NCBI GenBank assembly: GCA_016932965.1
Contig: JAFGBW010000123.1
Location: forward strand, 1 to 17,979
Direction of reading: 5' to 3'
Length of the DNA stretch: 17,979 bases
From: Candidatus Auribacterota bacterium
GTDB lineage: Bacteria; Auribacterota; JAFGBW01
Positions 1,359 through 8,840 of the stretch are shown one piece after another (the stretch's first letter is position 1; each line of letters opens with the position of its first letter). The position numbers and the translations under genes were made by a program. The notes below the pieces were generated by a model. The model worked only from the letters and a program-made list of their open reading frames with translations, was not told the DNA's origin and did no database searches.

Positions 1359-2861
1359 TCAATCATAGCCCCGGTGTTCATCGGGTATTTTCGACAGGGT
1401 GAAGATGGAGTAGTTTTTCTGGATTTCCAGGTTAGCCTGCTTCAATGGGTTAACGGGTATCACGACAGTAGGGACAGAAGGGTCCTCGAAATCAACAGAT
1501 AGATAAGGGGCTTGATCTTTTGTGCCCGAAGACAGCATGTCAAAAGCATCCTTGAAATTCCTGATTTTTTTTCCATTTATACTTGAAAGAATTTTGTCTT
1601 TCAGATGAAAATATCCCTGATTGAGAGGATGAGGCAGTACTCGGGTCAGAAGCACCATCCGCTCCCGGTCCTTAAAAACATGAAAACTGTTTTTTACTAG
1701 GAAATCAAATATCAAGGGATCCAGATTGGTTTTCCATTCCTTGTCCTGGCCTATGGTGCGCAGATAATTCAAATTCAGCTCCTGAAATAAAAATCCACCC
1801 TCCAGGATGTATGCAGGTTCCCCTTCAGGGTGATAAGGAATCGGCAGATCCTGAGTATGAAAAGAAAGCATCACCACATCGATCGTCTGCTTTTGACCGT
1901 CTCTCCACAAAGTGACTTTTACTTTATCTTGTGTTTTGCTTCTGCTAAAGAGATAAGTGAATGAAAGTTTGCCCCATTTGTCATCCTCGACCATTCCTTG
2001 CGGGTCTATATCTTTTCCGTCCCAATTCAGGAGCACGTCCCCTTCCTTCAGTTCCGTAGAACCTGTGCCGAAATCAAAGACTTCGGATAGATAGACACCC
2101 CGCTTTTCCTGATCGGGTATTTTTAAAAATCGGCGGCTGTCAGGTTGATCCCAGGCAGAAAAGGTGAAGCCGGCTTTGGGAATAGATTGTGCCGGTTTTT
2201 CTTTCATCCGTTTGAGAAAAGAATCAAGAATTAAAGCAGGAATGAGAAAATTGATCTGGTTTTTAGAGGGGTAAACCAGACCCAGGACTCGATTGTTTTC
2301 AGCACAGACCATTTGTCCTGTTTCAATCTGGGATGAAGATGAGGAGAGCCTGAAAAATAAAAATGAGGCCCCAGACAAGGGATTGTAATAGACTTCAGGA
2401 CTTTCGATTTTCCCTTCAACAGGAAGGAGTTGTCTGCCTTCCGTGAGACGTACAAAAAAAAGTTTTTCTCCGGTTTGAATGTCCTTGGTAAAGGACACGG
2501 GTTTTAAAGGCTGATCGAGAGCTGCAGGATCAATGGATAAAATCGCCAGATTCAAATCCCAGTCTATTTGCGCGGCTTTTGCCTCAATGAAGGTGCTTTG
2601 AAATGAAGTTTGAACCTGGATCAGTGTATGATATTGAATGAGGGAAGCCAGCGTCAGGATTTCGTATGGCCCCACGGCGATTCCCTGTCCTGTCTGCGTC
2701 TCAGAACTGTAATTTTGCCAGGGTCGCCTGTAGTCCGGGATCAATGAGTCGGTTTTGATGAAAACAACGGAATTTTTGAAGGGTTCTCTAGATGCCGCTC
2801 CGCATATTCTCAGGCATGAAAACAAGACAAAAAAAATACAATAGACCCAATATTTGCTCAT
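1359..2861 (-). CDS. Deg9-like PDZ protein, predicted catalytically dead (pseudoprotease)
   Basis: A 500-aa exported protein (signal peptide MSKYWVYCIFFVLFSCLRICGA) with the architecture of Deg9/HtrA-type proteases: trypsin-like fold at about 30-215, PDZ-like region at about 225-335 (GVYLSEVFDFG...LKEGDVLLNWDGKDID), and a C-terminal Deg-PDZ-like region at about 395-470 (LLTRVLPHPLNQGY...DKILSSINGKKI). Two of the three catalytic positions are lost. The TNAHVV box reads TLASLI (His replaced by Ser73), and the GNSGGP box reads IETGQM (Ser replaced by Thr181). The Asp box is kept (D102 in WDLNLAIL). It is a paralogue of the next gene upstream (2858-4378) and overlaps it by 4 bp (ATGA), with its own AGGAG site inside that gene, so the two are probably translationally coupled. 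I infer a scaffold, substrate-binding or regulatory partner. Reading frame intact, so not a decayed pseudogene. Confidence 0.85.
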   Translation of the reverse strand: MSKYWVYCIFFVLFSCLRICGAASREPFKNSVVFIKTDSLIPDYRRPWQNYSSETQTGQGIAVGPYEILTLASLIQYHTLIQVQTSFQSTFIEAKAAQIDWDLNLAILSIDPAALDQPLKPVSFTKDIQTGEKLFFVRLTEGRQLLPVEGKIESPEVYYNPLSGASFLFFRLSSSSSQIETGQMVCAENNRVLGLVYPSKNQINFLIPALILDSFLKRMKEKPAQSIPKAGFTFSAWDQPDSRRFLKIPDQEKRGVYLSEVFDFGTGSTELKEGDVLLNWDGKDIDPQGMVEDDKWGKLSFTYLFSRSKTQDKVKVTLWRDGQKQTIDVVMLSFHTQDLPIPYHPEGEPAYILEGGFLFQELNLNYLRTIGQDKEWKTNLDPLIFDFLVKNSFHVFKDRERMVLLTRVLPHPLNQGYFHLKDKILSSINGKKIRNFKDAFDMLSSGTKDQAPYLSVDFEDPSVPTVVIPVNPLKQANLEIQKNYSIFTLSKIPDEHRGYD

Positions 2862-4378
2862 TGGCTTTTCTCCTGATCCATGGCCATGGGAACGGCATAT
2901 TTTTTCAATAAATGGGATTGTCTGGCAGAAGATTTTTCCGCGTTCAAAATGAGCGGGGTGGAATTTTCGAAGAATCGCAATACATGGAAGGATCCTTTTG
3001 ATTTGGAAAAGGCGGTTTTCACATCATCGAGGCAGTGGATGGGGACATCATTGATGGTCTGGAGAATTTCATTTTGAAAGGGGGCTGCGTGCGCGTTGAA
3101 GAAATCCTTTAAGACCGCCGAAAGGACAACGTAATATTTTCTTTCAGGGTCCTGGTTGAAACGGGTCTGATAATAATAGAGCAGACGGAAAGGGTGGGGC
3201 ATCTGGGTCCACCAGTCTTTTCCAAAAAAATGCATGTATTCGCCGTTCAATTTGACAAAGACCAATCCTGCACAAATGACATAGCCTCTATGAGTTTCAT
3301 AAGTCATTCCCACGTCAAGCACGAATGGAATTTTTGTCAGCCGGACCGTTTGATTATTTTTTTCCCCGTTGCGATACCATTCCAGCGAAATAGACTCATT
3401 CATCTGGCTTCGTTCAATGATTTCATAAAAGGCAACTTGGAGTCCTTCCAGCGTGATGCTCCCGTCATCTAAGATTGGATATCCGTTAATGGAAGTGAGG
3501 ATGTCATTTTTTATTAGGATTTGATGGCAGGGCCCCAGGGGGTGAACATCATTGATCAGAATTCCGGATTTTTCTTGCGGCAGTCTCAAAAATTGGCGCA
3601 TGACAGGCGGAAGAGGCAAAAAATTGATCCCCAACTCAGGAACTCCATCAACATGGCCGTCCTGGATGTCTTGTAAAAAATGTTTGATCAGGGTGGAAGG
3701 AATCAGATAACCGATATTATCTCCTGTGCCTAGCCCCTGGAAGGCCATCCCCACGACAAGGTCGTTTTGAATGACCGGTCCGCCGCTGTTTCCCAGGTTC
3801 AACGCGGCGTCCGTTTGAATAACGAGATGTTCGTCAACCCCTGAATGGGAATAAATGATGCGGTCAATGCGGGAAACAATGCCGTTGGTAATGGAAAGTT
3901 TTTCACCGCCCAGAGGGAACCCGGCGGCTTTGACTATGGAATTCAGCTTAGGGATAGGTCCCAGACTCAAAGGAGTCAGATTGTCATAAAAGGTGGAAGA
4001 GGATACTTCCAATATGGCCAGATCCGAGACATGCGAAATCCACTTGATCACGGCAAGATACCGTTTTGCCTCGTTCTGCTTTTTGACTTCAATGTATTTA
4101 GCCTGGCTGACCACATGGGCATTCGTCAACAACAGATTGCCTTCCAGGACGAAACCGCTGCCGGAGGAAGCATTCAAAGGCGAAGAGAGCCACGGCAGGG
4201 CTGGATTGAAAACCTGCTCATGAGAAAAAATTTGAATTACGGCGTTCGGAATCGTAAAAGTGTCGGCCGGTGCCTGGCCCAGGAAAAAGACACAACAGAA
4301 TATAAAAAGCAGAGATAAGAAATCTTCCCTATTAGGGCCATTGTGCCATTGTGCTTTTGTGTCTTTTACTTTAACCAC
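2858..4378 (-). CDS. Deg9-like trypsin-type serine protease with PDZ domains
   Basis: A 506-aa HtrA/Deg-family endopeptidase, predicted to act in the periplasm. All three catalytic motifs are present: His88 in LLTNAHVV, Asp119 in VSDLAILEV, and Ser198 in LGNSGGPV. The protease domain covers about 45-240. PDZ1 is at about 248-350 (SGILINDVHPLGP, NDILTSINGYPILDDG), and a second, Deg9-type PDZ-like region is near 420-480 (YYVVLSAVL, NEILQTINDVPI). The NDILTSINGYPI-DDG pattern resembles plant and bacterial Deg9-type proteases more than DegP/DegS. The start is a GTG at 4376-4378 with AGAGG (4384-4388) 5 nt upstream. This gives a rather long polar n-region before the hydrophobic core LSLLFIFCCVFFLG; no ATG start is available in frame nearby. 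It follows the membrane-enzyme gene by 54 bp and overlaps the pseudoprotease gene by 4 bp. Confidence 0.9.
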   Translation of the reverse strand: MVKVKDTKAQWHNGPNREDFLSLLFIFCCVFFLGQAPADTFTIPNAVIQIFSHEQVFNPALPWLSSPLNASSGSGFVLEGNLLLTNAHVVSQAKYIEVKKQNEAKRYLAVIKWISHVSDLAILEVSSSTFYDNLTPLSLGPIPKLNSIVKAAGFPLGGEKLSITNGIVSRIDRIIYSHSGVDEHLVIQTDAALNLGNSGGPVIQNDLVVGMAFQGLGTGDNIGYLIPSTLIKHFLQDIQDGHVDGVPELGINFLPLPPVMRQFLRLPQEKSGILINDVHPLGPCHQILIKNDILTSINGYPILDDGSITLEGLQVAFYEIIERSQMNESISLEWYRNGEKNNQTVRLTKIPFVLDVGMTYETHRGYVICAGLVFVKLNGEYMHFFGKDWWTQMPHPFRLLYYYQTRFNQDPERKYYVVLSAVLKDFFNAHAAPFQNEILQTINDVPIHCLDDVKTAFSKSKGSFHVLRFFENSTPLILNAEKSSARQSHLLKKYAVPMAMDQEKSQ

Positions 4379-4432: not shown

Positions 4433-7400
4433 CTAATTATTTTCCGTTTCCGTTTTCCATCGGAGCGTGCCGTCGGAGCGCTGAAATACTCCAAGGGAAT
4501 TCTCCCATGTTTCTTCCTGGCTTTCTGTTTCATAAAGGGTTGCTGGCGAACAAAAACACCAGGGCATGAACGCACAATAACCCCTTTCTCTTGCTTTTGT
4601 CAAAGAAGAGAATAAATATTTTTTCTGGCTTTCTGGAGAGAGCCGTTCTCCAGGCAGACCAATCCAGTATTCTTCAATGATAACAGGCTTATCCTGAAAG
4701 GGAAGCACAGGGATAAGATGCGTGTGGATGGAGTGGAAATCCAGGTCTTTTATTGCATAAAAAGGGGTTTTTAAACCCGCTGTGATAAGCAGTTCTGGTC
4801 TTTTATCCCGGACGATCTGGACTTTTTCCTGCACCCAGTTTTTAAAATCAGACAGGTTTTCATCAGTCAAATGCGGCTCATTGATAAGATCAATGACGAG
4901 ATTGGATTGAAAACGGGTGGCTTCAAGAAACCGGATGAGAAAACGGTTTTGATTTTCGATTTTTTCAGGATCCCTGAATCGTTCCGGGTCTTTTTCCCAT
5001 CCTTGGGGATCGCCCATTTTTTTTCCGACAAGGCTGAAAAGATCCAGACAGACAATCAGCCCTTTTGATTGGGCCAAATCCAGAAGACATTGAACCAGAG
5101 TAAAAACATCAAAACGCGGCAGGGTTTCTTTTAAGTGATTATGACAGACGGTTTCATTGAAATCCTGTGCCCATTCAGGATGGATGAAATGAATTCTGAC
5201 CATTTTTATATCCAGCTTTTTCATGGTTTCAAAATCCCTCTCCACTTCCGACAAATCCGGAGTCATCCAGAAGCGGTCATAACTGGAAGAAGGATAATAA
5301 TTAACGCCTAGAAAAAAAGAATCACCGTCAAGGGTCATTTTATTTTCCTGGATCCGTGGATAGGGAACGTCCTTGTGTTCATCTGGAGAAGCCCGGTTGA
5401 TCAAGCCGCATTGAAGATGTTGAAAAATGGTTCGGTCTTTCGGAGTGATGGTAAAGGAGATAAAACGTTTTTTAAGCGGTACAGACGGAAGAAGGATCTC
5501 AAGATTCGTCATTGTTTTAGGCGGAAATTCCCCGGTTTTTTCCATGATTTGATTTCCGTCTGATTCAATGACAAAATGCTCGGAAACCTTTTTTTCCGAG
5601 AGATTCCGCACAAGAAGATTAAGAGAAACGGATTCATCCGCAGAAGACACATAAAGAGCCGAGGGATAAAAATCAGCGAGGCTCAAAGGATATCGAAAAT
5701 TGTTCACAATCATGGGGAACAGTTCTTCTTCTGTATTGGCTTGAAGGGAACCGGGATAAGCCGGAAACCCCCAGAAAAAGATACGGGAACAAAACAGTTT
5801 GCCGTAAGGATTTCGATGGAAGTAAGAAAAAGAAGCCGGTTTTCCTATCACAAATCCCGCTGAGTCTTCCGCCTCAATCAAAGGAAAAGAATGTCCGAGG
5901 GGGATCCGGAATGGAAATACATTGCCTGCAGAAGGAAAACAATTGAATTCCCTGCTGCCGGTTGAAACGGTCAGACCGTTAAAATAAAAAGATCCGGCTG
6001 GCTGAAGGTTTTTGGGGCTGGAATAAAATCGGATTGTTTCAGACGGGGAACAAACATACGGCTTCATTCCCATTTGACGCATGATATATTGATGAAGGTC
6101 ATTGGCTCTTTTAGCCGGGGGCCAGGGATTGGAAAAAGGCGCGCTTCCGGTAAACCAAAAGGATCCGCCTCCTTGGTAAAACAAAATCAATTCTTGAAGA
6201 CAATGTTCCGGATAAAAAGGCCCATACGGCAGAATCAGAGTTTCAACTCTGTGTTCCAGAAGGGCTTTTTTTAAATCACGGGCAGTTAATTTCACAAATG
6301 GAACCTTATTTTTGAGCAGTTCTTTTTCAAACCAGTCTTTTTGATCCTGCCAAAGAGCAACAGGAATTTGTTTCTCCTGCCATAGTCCAAAAGGAACAGG
6401 CTGTATAGAGGGGGGAACCTGTATGGCTTTTTTCAGATAATCCGGCTGGGTGAACTGATTTTTGTATAACCGGATTTCCATATCGTTTTTGGATTCAAAA
6501 ATCAGCTGATATTGGTCTGAAACAGCGGCAAAATGCTTTTCAAGAAGATCCAAAAAGCCGGTGACAGCCGGTTCTTCCAAAGACCGATCTCTCTGGATAA
6601 GAACAAAATCACTTTGACGGAGAAACAGCGGCGTGTTTCGCAATGATTCATATGCAGGAACATTGATCCGGAGCATATTCAATTCATTCTGAATAACAGG
6701 CGGAATCCATGGATTATTCTGGTCCCCCAGAATAAATCCCCTGATATTATTTTGAAGGAAAATCGAGGAAAGCGTGGAAGGCCATTTTTCATCCGAGACA
6801 ATACAGCTCATCCAGAAAGGAAAGGATTGGGGTTCGTGCTTTTTCAAGGCCTTGATGATAAGCAGGGAGAGGGAACCATGAGGCTCAAAAAAAGGATCTG
6901 CCTTGGTTCGTGCGCCGCCGGAGACGATTTGATTTGAGGCGTCAAACAGGGTGATTGTGCCGTCCCAGTTGAGAGACGATTTGATGGTTTGTGAAGAGGA
7001 GAGTTTGAACGTCAGACGGAAACCAGGCAGCATTTTTTCAGGCAGGGATTGGAACAGGCTTTGCATGAATAAGATAGGAATAAATAAACACAGGATTGCT
7101 GTAATAATCTTGAATGGCTTACCGGCAAGGCATGCTCCGCATAAACCTGCGAACAAAAAAACAAGGGGTATTTGATACCGGATTCCAGTTACATAAAAAT
7201 CCCTTCCCAATGTGGGCCTCAACCACGCTAAAACGGCCATGACTCCAATAAGATAGAGCAGTGCGCTGTATTTTGTTAACGGTTTTATTTCATCAGATTT
7301 CCATGAAAAACAAAGCACTCCTAATGCCATCCAGGAAAAACCCCCTGTCTGATTGATGAACCCAAGGATTTGCCAGAAAAGCATTTTGACATACATGGAA

Positions 7401-8191
7401 AAGCTGACCGCATGAAAAAGGTTCCAGCTGCCTGACACATCAGGGGAAAGAATCAGGGATCTGAATTTGGGGAGAGAAAAAGGCATACAAAGCATCAAAA
7501 AGAAAAGGATCATGAAAGCAGGCTTTTTTATTTCAGACGGCCTGATACAGAAATAAAGGATCAAGCTGATCCAGGGATAGATCAAAACAGAATGATTTGT
7601 AAACGCCATCAGAAAGAGGAAGAAGATAAACAGGTATAGCCGGAGAAAACGTTGAGGATGAAGAATCAAGGAACGTAAAACCAAAAGAGAGGCGAGAAAA
7701 AGCGTCCATGAAAAAACCTCTGGCAAAAGCACTTTGCCCGGATGAAAAACACTAGGGGAAACCGCCAGGAGAAGAGTGGCAATCCGCGCTGCTTTGGCTG
7801 AAAAAAAACTGCGGTTCAGGAAATAAAACAAAAGAAAAAAAGGCGGATAAAAAAGCATATCATTGAGGAGGATCAGGTTTTTAATATTCATGGGGGGCAG
7901 CAGATAGGCGGCCAGAGACAGAAGAAAACTCCACAACGGTGAGGCAAAGGCATATAAAGACTCCAAAATTTGACCGTTAAATCTGAATGATTCCCTCCAG
8001 GAATCTGACACATATCTTATTTGCTGGAAGTAACGTACACTGTCATGGGAAGGCATGGCGATATTGGTCTGATGCCACAAGAACAGGGCTCCGAGACAGA
8101 CAAAGACCGCGGCAAATGGGAAAAGAGGAAATGGACGGGGAAACGAGTTGTGATGGAATTTTGTCAACAAGGCGAGAAATTTCCTATTCAT
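4433..8191 (-). CDS. giant membrane protein: GT-C glycosyltransferase-like N-terminus fused to GH5-like hydrolase
   Basis: A 1252-aa protein. Residues 1 to about 380 contain roughly 11-13 hydrophobic segments, starting with TM1 (about 24-42). TM1 is followed by a loop with an acidic residue (IAMPSHDSVRYF, Asp50), as in lipid-sugar-dependent GT-C enzymes (PMT/ArnT type) with their catalytic Asp in the first outer loop. Residues 390-595 are a soluble region. Residues 600-830 look like a GATase1-like alpha/beta fold (VALWQDQKDWFEKEL, TLILPYGPFYPEHCLQEL, YQGGGSFWFTGSAPF). Residues 840-935 look like an Ig-type beta sandwich. Residues 955-1250 resemble a GH5 clan-A TIM barrel: FLGVNYYPSS, acid/base Glu1105 in IDLINEPH, His in HSIHTHL, and nucleophile Glu1173 or Glu1174 in VIIEEYWIG. 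The tail should face the periplasm. The ATG at 8189-8191 is preceded directly by an in-frame TAG, and no Shine-Dalgarno site is seen. Activity and sugar are unknown; the membrane part could be a non-enzymatic relative. Confidence 0.75.
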   Translation of the reverse strand: MNRKFLALLTKFHHNSFPRPFPLFPFAAVFVCLGALFLWHQTNIAMPSHDSVRYFQQIRYVSDSWRESFRFNGQILESLYAFASPLWSFLLSLAAYLLPPMNIKNLILLNDMLFYPPFFLLFYFLNRSFFSAKAARIATLLLAVSPSVFHPGKVLLPEVFSWTLFLASLLVLRSLILHPQRFLRLYLFIFFLFLMAFTNHSVLIYPWISLILYFCIRPSEIKKPAFMILFFLMLCMPFSLPKFRSLILSPDVSGSWNLFHAVSFSMYVKMLFWQILGFINQTGGFSWMALGVLCFSWKSDEIKPLTKYSALLYLIGVMAVLAWLRPTLGRDFYVTGIRYQIPLVFLFAGLCGACLAGKPFKIITAILCLFIPILFMQSLFQSLPEKMLPGFRLTFKLSSSQTIKSSLNWDGTITLFDASNQIVSGGARTKADPFFEPHGSLSLLIIKALKKHEPQSFPFWMSCIVSDEKWPSTLSSIFLQNNIRGFILGDQNNPWIPPVIQNELNMLRINVPAYESLRNTPLFLRQSDFVLIQRDRSLEEPAVTGFLDLLEKHFAAVSDQYQLIFESKNDMEIRLYKNQFTQPDYLKKAIQVPPSIQPVPFGLWQEKQIPVALWQDQKDWFEKELLKNKVPFVKLTARDLKKALLEHRVETLILPYGPFYPEHCLQELILFYQGGGSFWFTGSAPFSNPWPPAKRANDLHQYIMRQMGMKPYVCSPSETIRFYSSPKNLQPAGSFYFNGLTVSTGSREFNCFPSAGNVFPFRIPLGHSFPLIEAEDSAGFVIGKPASFSYFHRNPYGKLFCSRIFFWGFPAYPGSLQANTEEELFPMIVNNFRYPLSLADFYPSALYVSSADESVSLNLLVRNLSEKKVSEHFVIESDGNQIMEKTGEFPPKTMTNLEILLPSVPLKKRFISFTITPKDRTIFQHLQCGLINRASPDEHKDVPYPRIQENKMTLDGDSFFLGVNYYPSSSYDRFWMTPDLSEVERDFETMKKLDIKMVRIHFIHPEWAQDFNETVCHNHLKETLPRFDVFTLVQCLLDLAQSKGLIVCLDLFSLVGKKMGDPQGWEKDPERFRDPEKIENQNRFLIRFLEATRFQSNLVIDLINEPHLTDENLSDFKNWVQEKVQIVRDKRPELLITAGLKTPFYAIKDLDFHSIHTHLIPVLPFQDKPVIIEEYWIGLPGERLSPESQKKYLFSSLTKARERGYCAFMPWCFCSPATLYETESQEETWENSLGVFQRSDGTLRWKTETENN

Positions 8192-8672: not shown

Positions 8673-8840
8673 TCAGGCCATGATATCCAGGAGGGCTTTG
8701 ACAGCCGTGGCCATCTTTTCAGCTTCCATTTCCTGTTCCATGTTGATTTTAGCCAGTTTTTCCAGTTGTTCAGTCTGGACCCGCACTGCCTGAGCGTAAA
8801 CGTCTATAATAGAATTGGATGATATACCGGAAATATCCAT
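8673..8840 (-). CDS. YjfB-like putative motility protein
   Basis: A 55-aa protein that begins MDISGISSNS and continues as one amphipathic helix (VYAQAVRVQTEQLEKLAKI...AEKMATAVKALLDIMA). Length, the MDI start, the Q-rich middle and the short hydrophobic end match the YjfB-like family, described as putative motility proteins. No biochemical role is firmly known. I chose the ATG at 8838-8840 because GGGGAGG (8846-8852) lies 5 nt upstream. A longer frame starting at 8867 would put that ribosome binding site inside the gene. It follows orn by 45 bp in the same direction and may be co-transcribed with it. Its presence hints that the organism is, or was, motile. Confidence 0.75.
   Translation of the reverse strand: MDISGISSNSIIDVYAQAVRVQTEQLEKLAKINMEQEMEAEKMATAVKALLDIMA

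Follow-up and report, generated by a model that had tools for sequence, protein, structure and literature searches.

Introduction

Can a single polypeptide carry both a glycosyltransferase of the GT-C type and a glycoside hydrolase, with the two active sites on the same outer face of the membrane? This question is raised by a gene of Candidatus Auribacterota bacterium (GCA_016932965.1), located on contig JAFGBW010000123.1, which in its entirety of 17,979 nucleotides constitutes the window analysed here. Overall, we consider an inner-membrane GT-C transferase joined to an outer-face GH5 enzyme in one chain the best reading of this locus, with a probability of roughly 0.6.

Results and Discussion

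Integrity of the gene

The preliminary description of this DNA had placed an open reading frame at 4433-8191 and had left out its strand. The frame is present on the minus strand, where it starts with ATG and comprises 1252 codons; the plus-strand frame over the same positions is riddled with stops. The gene is present in one copy in its 3.14-Mb, 300-contig genome and encodes the following features:

4433-8191, minus strand: single-chain protein with GT-C-like membrane domain, GATase1-like domain, sandwich and GH5 barrel (uninterrupted frame; single copy in the genome)
7022-8191, minus strand: residues 1-390, about 13 hydrophobic helices, GT-C-like (hydropathy; helices in the model; GT-C rows in VIA-align; PMT_2-containing homologues)
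8042-8044, minus strand: codon of Asp50, putative outer-loop Asp of GT-C type in HDSxxY (near-invariant column in a ten-sequence alignment with PMT_2 proteins)
7163-7180, minus strand: RYQIPL motif, residues 338-343 (R338 near-invariant in the same alignment)
6452-7021, minus strand: residues 391-580, soluble tail that belongs to the GT-C part and closes with ...EIRLYK, compared to ...LRLYE in relatives (alignment)
6380-6451, minus strand: linker, residues 581-604 (free of in-frame start codons)
5687-6379, minus strand: residues 605-835, GATase1-like domain with GGGSFWFTGSAPF in place of the Cys nucleophile (match to Paenibacillus proteins)
5342-5686, minus strand: residues 836-950, beta-sandwich-like region (equivalent position in Paenibacillus relatives; strands in a low-confidence model)
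4436-5341, minus strand: residues 951-1252, GH5 (clan A) barrel (PF00150, E 4.2e-6, 26.9 bits against a cut-off of 23.5; Foldseek E 1.8e-9; VIA Z 20)
4877-4879, minus strand: Glu1105, acid/base, in LINEP (invariant in 18 sequences)
4670-4672, minus strand: Glu1174, nucleophile, the second Glu of VIIEEYW (invariant in 18 sequences)

The 1252-aa fusion is a real, intact single chain. Its frame holds no stop over 1252 codons, compared to 52 and 62 stops in the other two frames of the same strand, and the junction between the two halves (residues 572-632) is free of in-frame ATG, GTG and TTG codons, so that an erroneous join of two genes, which the preliminary description had allowed for, looks unlikely. 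An assembly or sequencing error that fused two neighbouring genes could account for the presence of the fusion in just one genome among the collections searched, and for the drop in GC3 from 0.48-0.49 in residues 1-600 to 0.40-0.42 afterwards. It would nevertheless require the second gene to start within residues 572-632, or in another frame with an additional indel, and given the stop-free frame and the start-free junction we regard such an artefact as very improbable.

The surroundings of the gene contain no glycan gene cluster within this window, which, like the occurrence of the fusion in a single genome, counts against the reading preferred here. Two adjoining HtrA-like proteins are encoded at 1359-2861 and 2858-4378 on the minus strand. 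The latter retains TNAHVV and GNSGGP, while the protein at 1359-2861 may, judged from its sequence, be a pseudoprotease because both motifs are missing. Upstream of the 1252-aa gene lies a short open reading frame, MDISGISSNSIIDVYAQAV..., at about 8673-8840 on the minus strand, followed by some 470 bases without a long open reading frame.

The N-terminal membrane domain

The multi-spanning N-terminus and its D50, both already noted in the preliminary description, are evident from hydropathy and sequence. The Pfam search suggested at that time gave a divided answer for this part: the N-terminus itself reaches no curated threshold, but its homologues carry GT-C domains. No curated family scores above its cut-off in residues 1-940, residues 1-580 are without any family match, and PMT_2 (PF13231) gave no match at E<1 in the Pfam scan and thus stays below its curated threshold. 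A single-sequence search with the N-terminus returned weak matches, from the phylum itself as well as from distant genomes, that fall on open reading frames with Pfam GT-C domains. All ten intact frames submitted to Pfam (L003-L006, L223, L224, L228-L231) proved to be GT-C proteins, nine by PMT_2 above the cut-off and one by an Alg9-like match slightly below its own; the scan left aside the short or interrupted matches L007, L009, L225-L227 and L232 as well as the radical-SAM-like frame L008.

Controls with altered sequences are consistent with a genuine relationship. The best phmmer score was 19.0 bits; among 300 window-shuffled copies the highest score was 9.8, and the reversed sequence gave 3.1. 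A profile built from nine of the N-terminus matches scored 43.8 bits, a value biased by the choice of members for having matched the query, and a profile from 25 PMT_2 proteins chosen independently of the query gave 1.3 bits, which exceeds all shuffles (best -0.9) without being significant. In a ten-protein alignment with PMT_2 proteins, D50, Y123, P146, P206, P237 and R338 are near-invariant, and both D50 and RYxxP line up with GT-C enzymes. By this alignment D50 corresponds to the outer-loop Asp that follows TM1 in GT-C enzymes, which would place it on the outer side. Aligned by hhalign to a profile of three GT-C proteins, the N-terminus reached a probability of 51 over 54 columns.

The AlphaFold2 model of the N-terminus, built on the ten-protein alignment, has a mean pLDDT of 48, with values of about 50-77 in residues 20-200. 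When this low-confidence model was compared to the PDB with VIA-align, the best 24 rows were all GT-C enzymes or their relatives (Z 15.4 to 7.9), among them STT3, Pmt4, ALG6, PglB, AftA/B, ArnT (Z 9.8) and PimE, and the first unrelated row followed at Z 5.9, a match that is partly circular as PMT_2 proteins sat in the input alignment of the model. Foldseek ranked STT3/PglB in the top three places at a non-significant E of 0.1 at best. The identity of the weak homologues, the shuffle controls and the structure comparison support the GT-C-like character claimed for this domain, and the resemblance is to GT-C proteins and not to a transporter, the contrary outcome considered in the preliminary description. 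We judge it likely, short of proof, that residues 1-390 have the GT-C fold.

A GT-C fold may have outlived its activity, serving now only to anchor an outer-face GH5 glycosidase in the membrane. The sub-threshold PMT_2 score and the D-S pair in the first-loop motif would fit such a loss, as would the length of the C-terminal module, which keeps all its catalytic residues. The retention of D50, R338 and other positions across distant relatives argues against it, the PMT_2 proteins of the phylum display the same D-S or a D-N pair, and a polytopic domain of 390 residues with a soluble tail of 190 would make a costly anchor. Taken together, we consider the anchor unlikely and an active transferase the better reading.

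Large proteins with PMT_2 matches were also encountered elsewhere: L122-L125 are open frames of 1759-1979 codons with a PMT_2 match and about 20 or more hydrophobic segments.

The C-terminal module and its soluble relatives

Residues 951-1252 form a GH5 barrel with its catalytic pair. The Pfam Cellulase (GH5) match spans residues 972-1139, and the motifs LINEPH and VIIEEYW occupy residues 1102-1107 and 1170-1176, respectively. As expected for GH5, E1105 provides the acid/base Glu within NEP and E1174, located where strand 7 ends, the nucleophile; both are invariant in 18 aligned sequences together with N1104, H1156 and R999. The model of the C-terminal half has a mean pLDDT of 46, with the barrel part being better; for this barrel alone, the rest of the model being poor, the (beta/alpha)8 fold is recovered with a VIA Z of 20.3 to a GH5 mannanase over 249 residues at an rmsd of 3.4. 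The GH5-like barrel with two Glu motifs described earlier is thus borne out by Pfam, structure comparison and the conserved catalytic pair.

As to the substrate, many of the GH5 structures matched at VIA Z 18.4-20.3 are mannanases or mannosidases, and Foldseek (E 1.8e-9) placed GH5_18 and other mannan-active GH5 enzymes at the top. GH5_18, a group of beta-mannosidases, is nearest by sequence, weakly so (E 0.056), and among the top folds it is tied with other GH5 subfamilies. A mannose substrate for the GH5 module is only a lead.

The barrel might also serve mainly to bind glycan or position the acceptor, with little hydrolysis, similar to the carbohydrate-binding modules (CBMs) of other GT-C enzymes, and GT-C enzymes with acceptor-binding outer-face CBMs are indeed known (PMC11127046). 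A pure binder, however, could lose its catalytic residues, whereas both catalytic Glu, the adjoining Asn and the His are invariant here; we consider this role improbable, and a catalytically competent GH5 module remains our preferred reading.

The matches of a search with the barrel include soluble proteins about 1050 aa long. In a pairwise comparison with one Paenibacillus protein, the GATase1-like segment 656-689 and the barrel segment 961-1157 both match with their order kept. A pattern scan of genome contigs revealed 80 such loci (L142-L221), titled Paenibacillus and Cohnella apart from one Bacillus and one Lederbergia, and the GGxxxxGxAPF signature was present in 68 of the 80. A simple hydropathy scan detected no membrane segment in 79 of these loci and one in the remaining locus. 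The C-terminal module shares ancestry with these soluble Paenibacillus proteins, which resemble residues 605-1252 in their domain order (GATase1, sandwich, GH5/42) and signature. They differ in lacking the polytopic membrane domain and in having a longer barrel with inserts as well as an additional C-terminal part. The GATase1-like and sandwich domains proposed earlier draw their support from this common order and sequence, their folds being poorly modelled. The GxCxG Cys that acts as nucleophile in class I glutamine amidotransferases is absent from residues 605-835, where the segment reads GGGSFWFTGSAPF; the likeness to GATase1 is one of fold only.

Proposed function

In the following scheme, the topology, the two activities and how they are coupled, as well as the choice of mannose as sugar, are inferred. 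The protein would act as a single-chain enzyme of the inner membrane, in which the GT-C-type domain, its active site around D50 facing outside, most likely would use a polyprenyl-phosphate-linked sugar as donor and extend an envelope glycan with it. With D50 outside, as in GT-C enzymes, and the odd number of membrane helices in the model (about 13), the soluble tail and the GATase1-like, sandwich and GH5 module would come to lie on the same face as D50, and hence the GH5 module outside too. The latter, a predicted retaining barrel that comes closest to the beta-mannoside-active group of GH5, may act on this glycan or on a neighbouring one, by cutting or by transglycosylation. That the two parts cooperate as a bifunctional outer-face enzyme, with GT-C adding possibly mannosyl residues and the attached GH5 trimming or transglycosylating the product from an active site on the same side, is a tentative proposal to which we give somewhat less than even odds. 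If true, the coupling of both steps would be testable in one gene with two point mutants.

Search for the same architecture

The search for this architecture in other genomes, as suggested in the preliminary description, returned no match in the collections covered. No close homologue of the entire protein was detected in viral contigs, genome contigs or 98 relatives, nor, when the two halves were searched separately, in 44 genomes of the phylum at E 1e-3, and the barrel had no match in plasmids. A second GT-C/GH5 chain was likewise absent from the collections searched, at limited sensitivity and by non-exhaustive searches, of which one GH5 family run found the GH5 of the window itself and a larger, looser run missed it. 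When 20 GH5 loci of other genomes, most of them long frames, were screened for membrane helices, one GH5-GT2 chain and no GT-C-like chain came up, and no GT-C/GH fusion was found in the open-access papers searched.

Giant multi-spanning proteins with a C-terminal GH5, split by contig ends, were observed at L056 (3280-6375, minus strand), L236 (2-5290, minus strand) and L035. Their GT2-like motifs (AEDY, QMSRW) hint at a GT2 identity, to which Pfam, NCBIfam and PDB sequences lent no support for the proteins at L056 and L236.

Comparison with known systems

PMT_2 enzymes of the GT39-GT83 type, such as ArnT (5ezm), share with our protein the multi-helix layout, the first-loop Asp, RYxxP and a soluble tail; they lack a GH module, and our protein misses the Pfam threshold. 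EmbA-C, AftD and GT136 ORF12 (PMC11127046) also extend a GT-C core by a carbohydrate domain on the outer face, which is a CBM there and a catalytic GH barrel here. Within the same phylum, L126, L128, L130 and L131 hold GT-C (PMT_2) proteins that carry an NHL propeller at the C-terminus.

Closer in concept are chains that unite a membrane glycosyltransferase with a glycosidase. A 1052-aa chain (P0005; L251, 2189-5344, plus strand) combines an N-terminal GH5 (E 1e-56) with a cellulose-synthase-like GT2; it equals our protein in joining GH5 to a membrane GT, and differs in the position of its GH5 and in the family of its GT. In the GH17-GT2 cyclic beta-glucan synthases (NdvB and BcsA-like orphans), a membrane GT and a GH are also part of one chain, and isolated GH17 domains were reported to transglycosylate beta-glucan (PMC10237404). 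These synthases share with our protein an outer-face GH-family domain joined to a membrane glycosyltransferase, but employ GT2 and GH17 instead of a GT-C-like domain and a C-terminal GH5. In such published single-chain glycan synthase-hydrolases the GT2 domain is cytoplasmic and the GH domain lies outside, whereas both sites of the GT-C/GH5 chain would face outward, making and breaking bonds on one face. The union of a membrane GT and a GH in one chain is thus known in kind from GT2-GH17 and GH5-GT2 proteins; what our protein adds to this kind is its GT-C partner.
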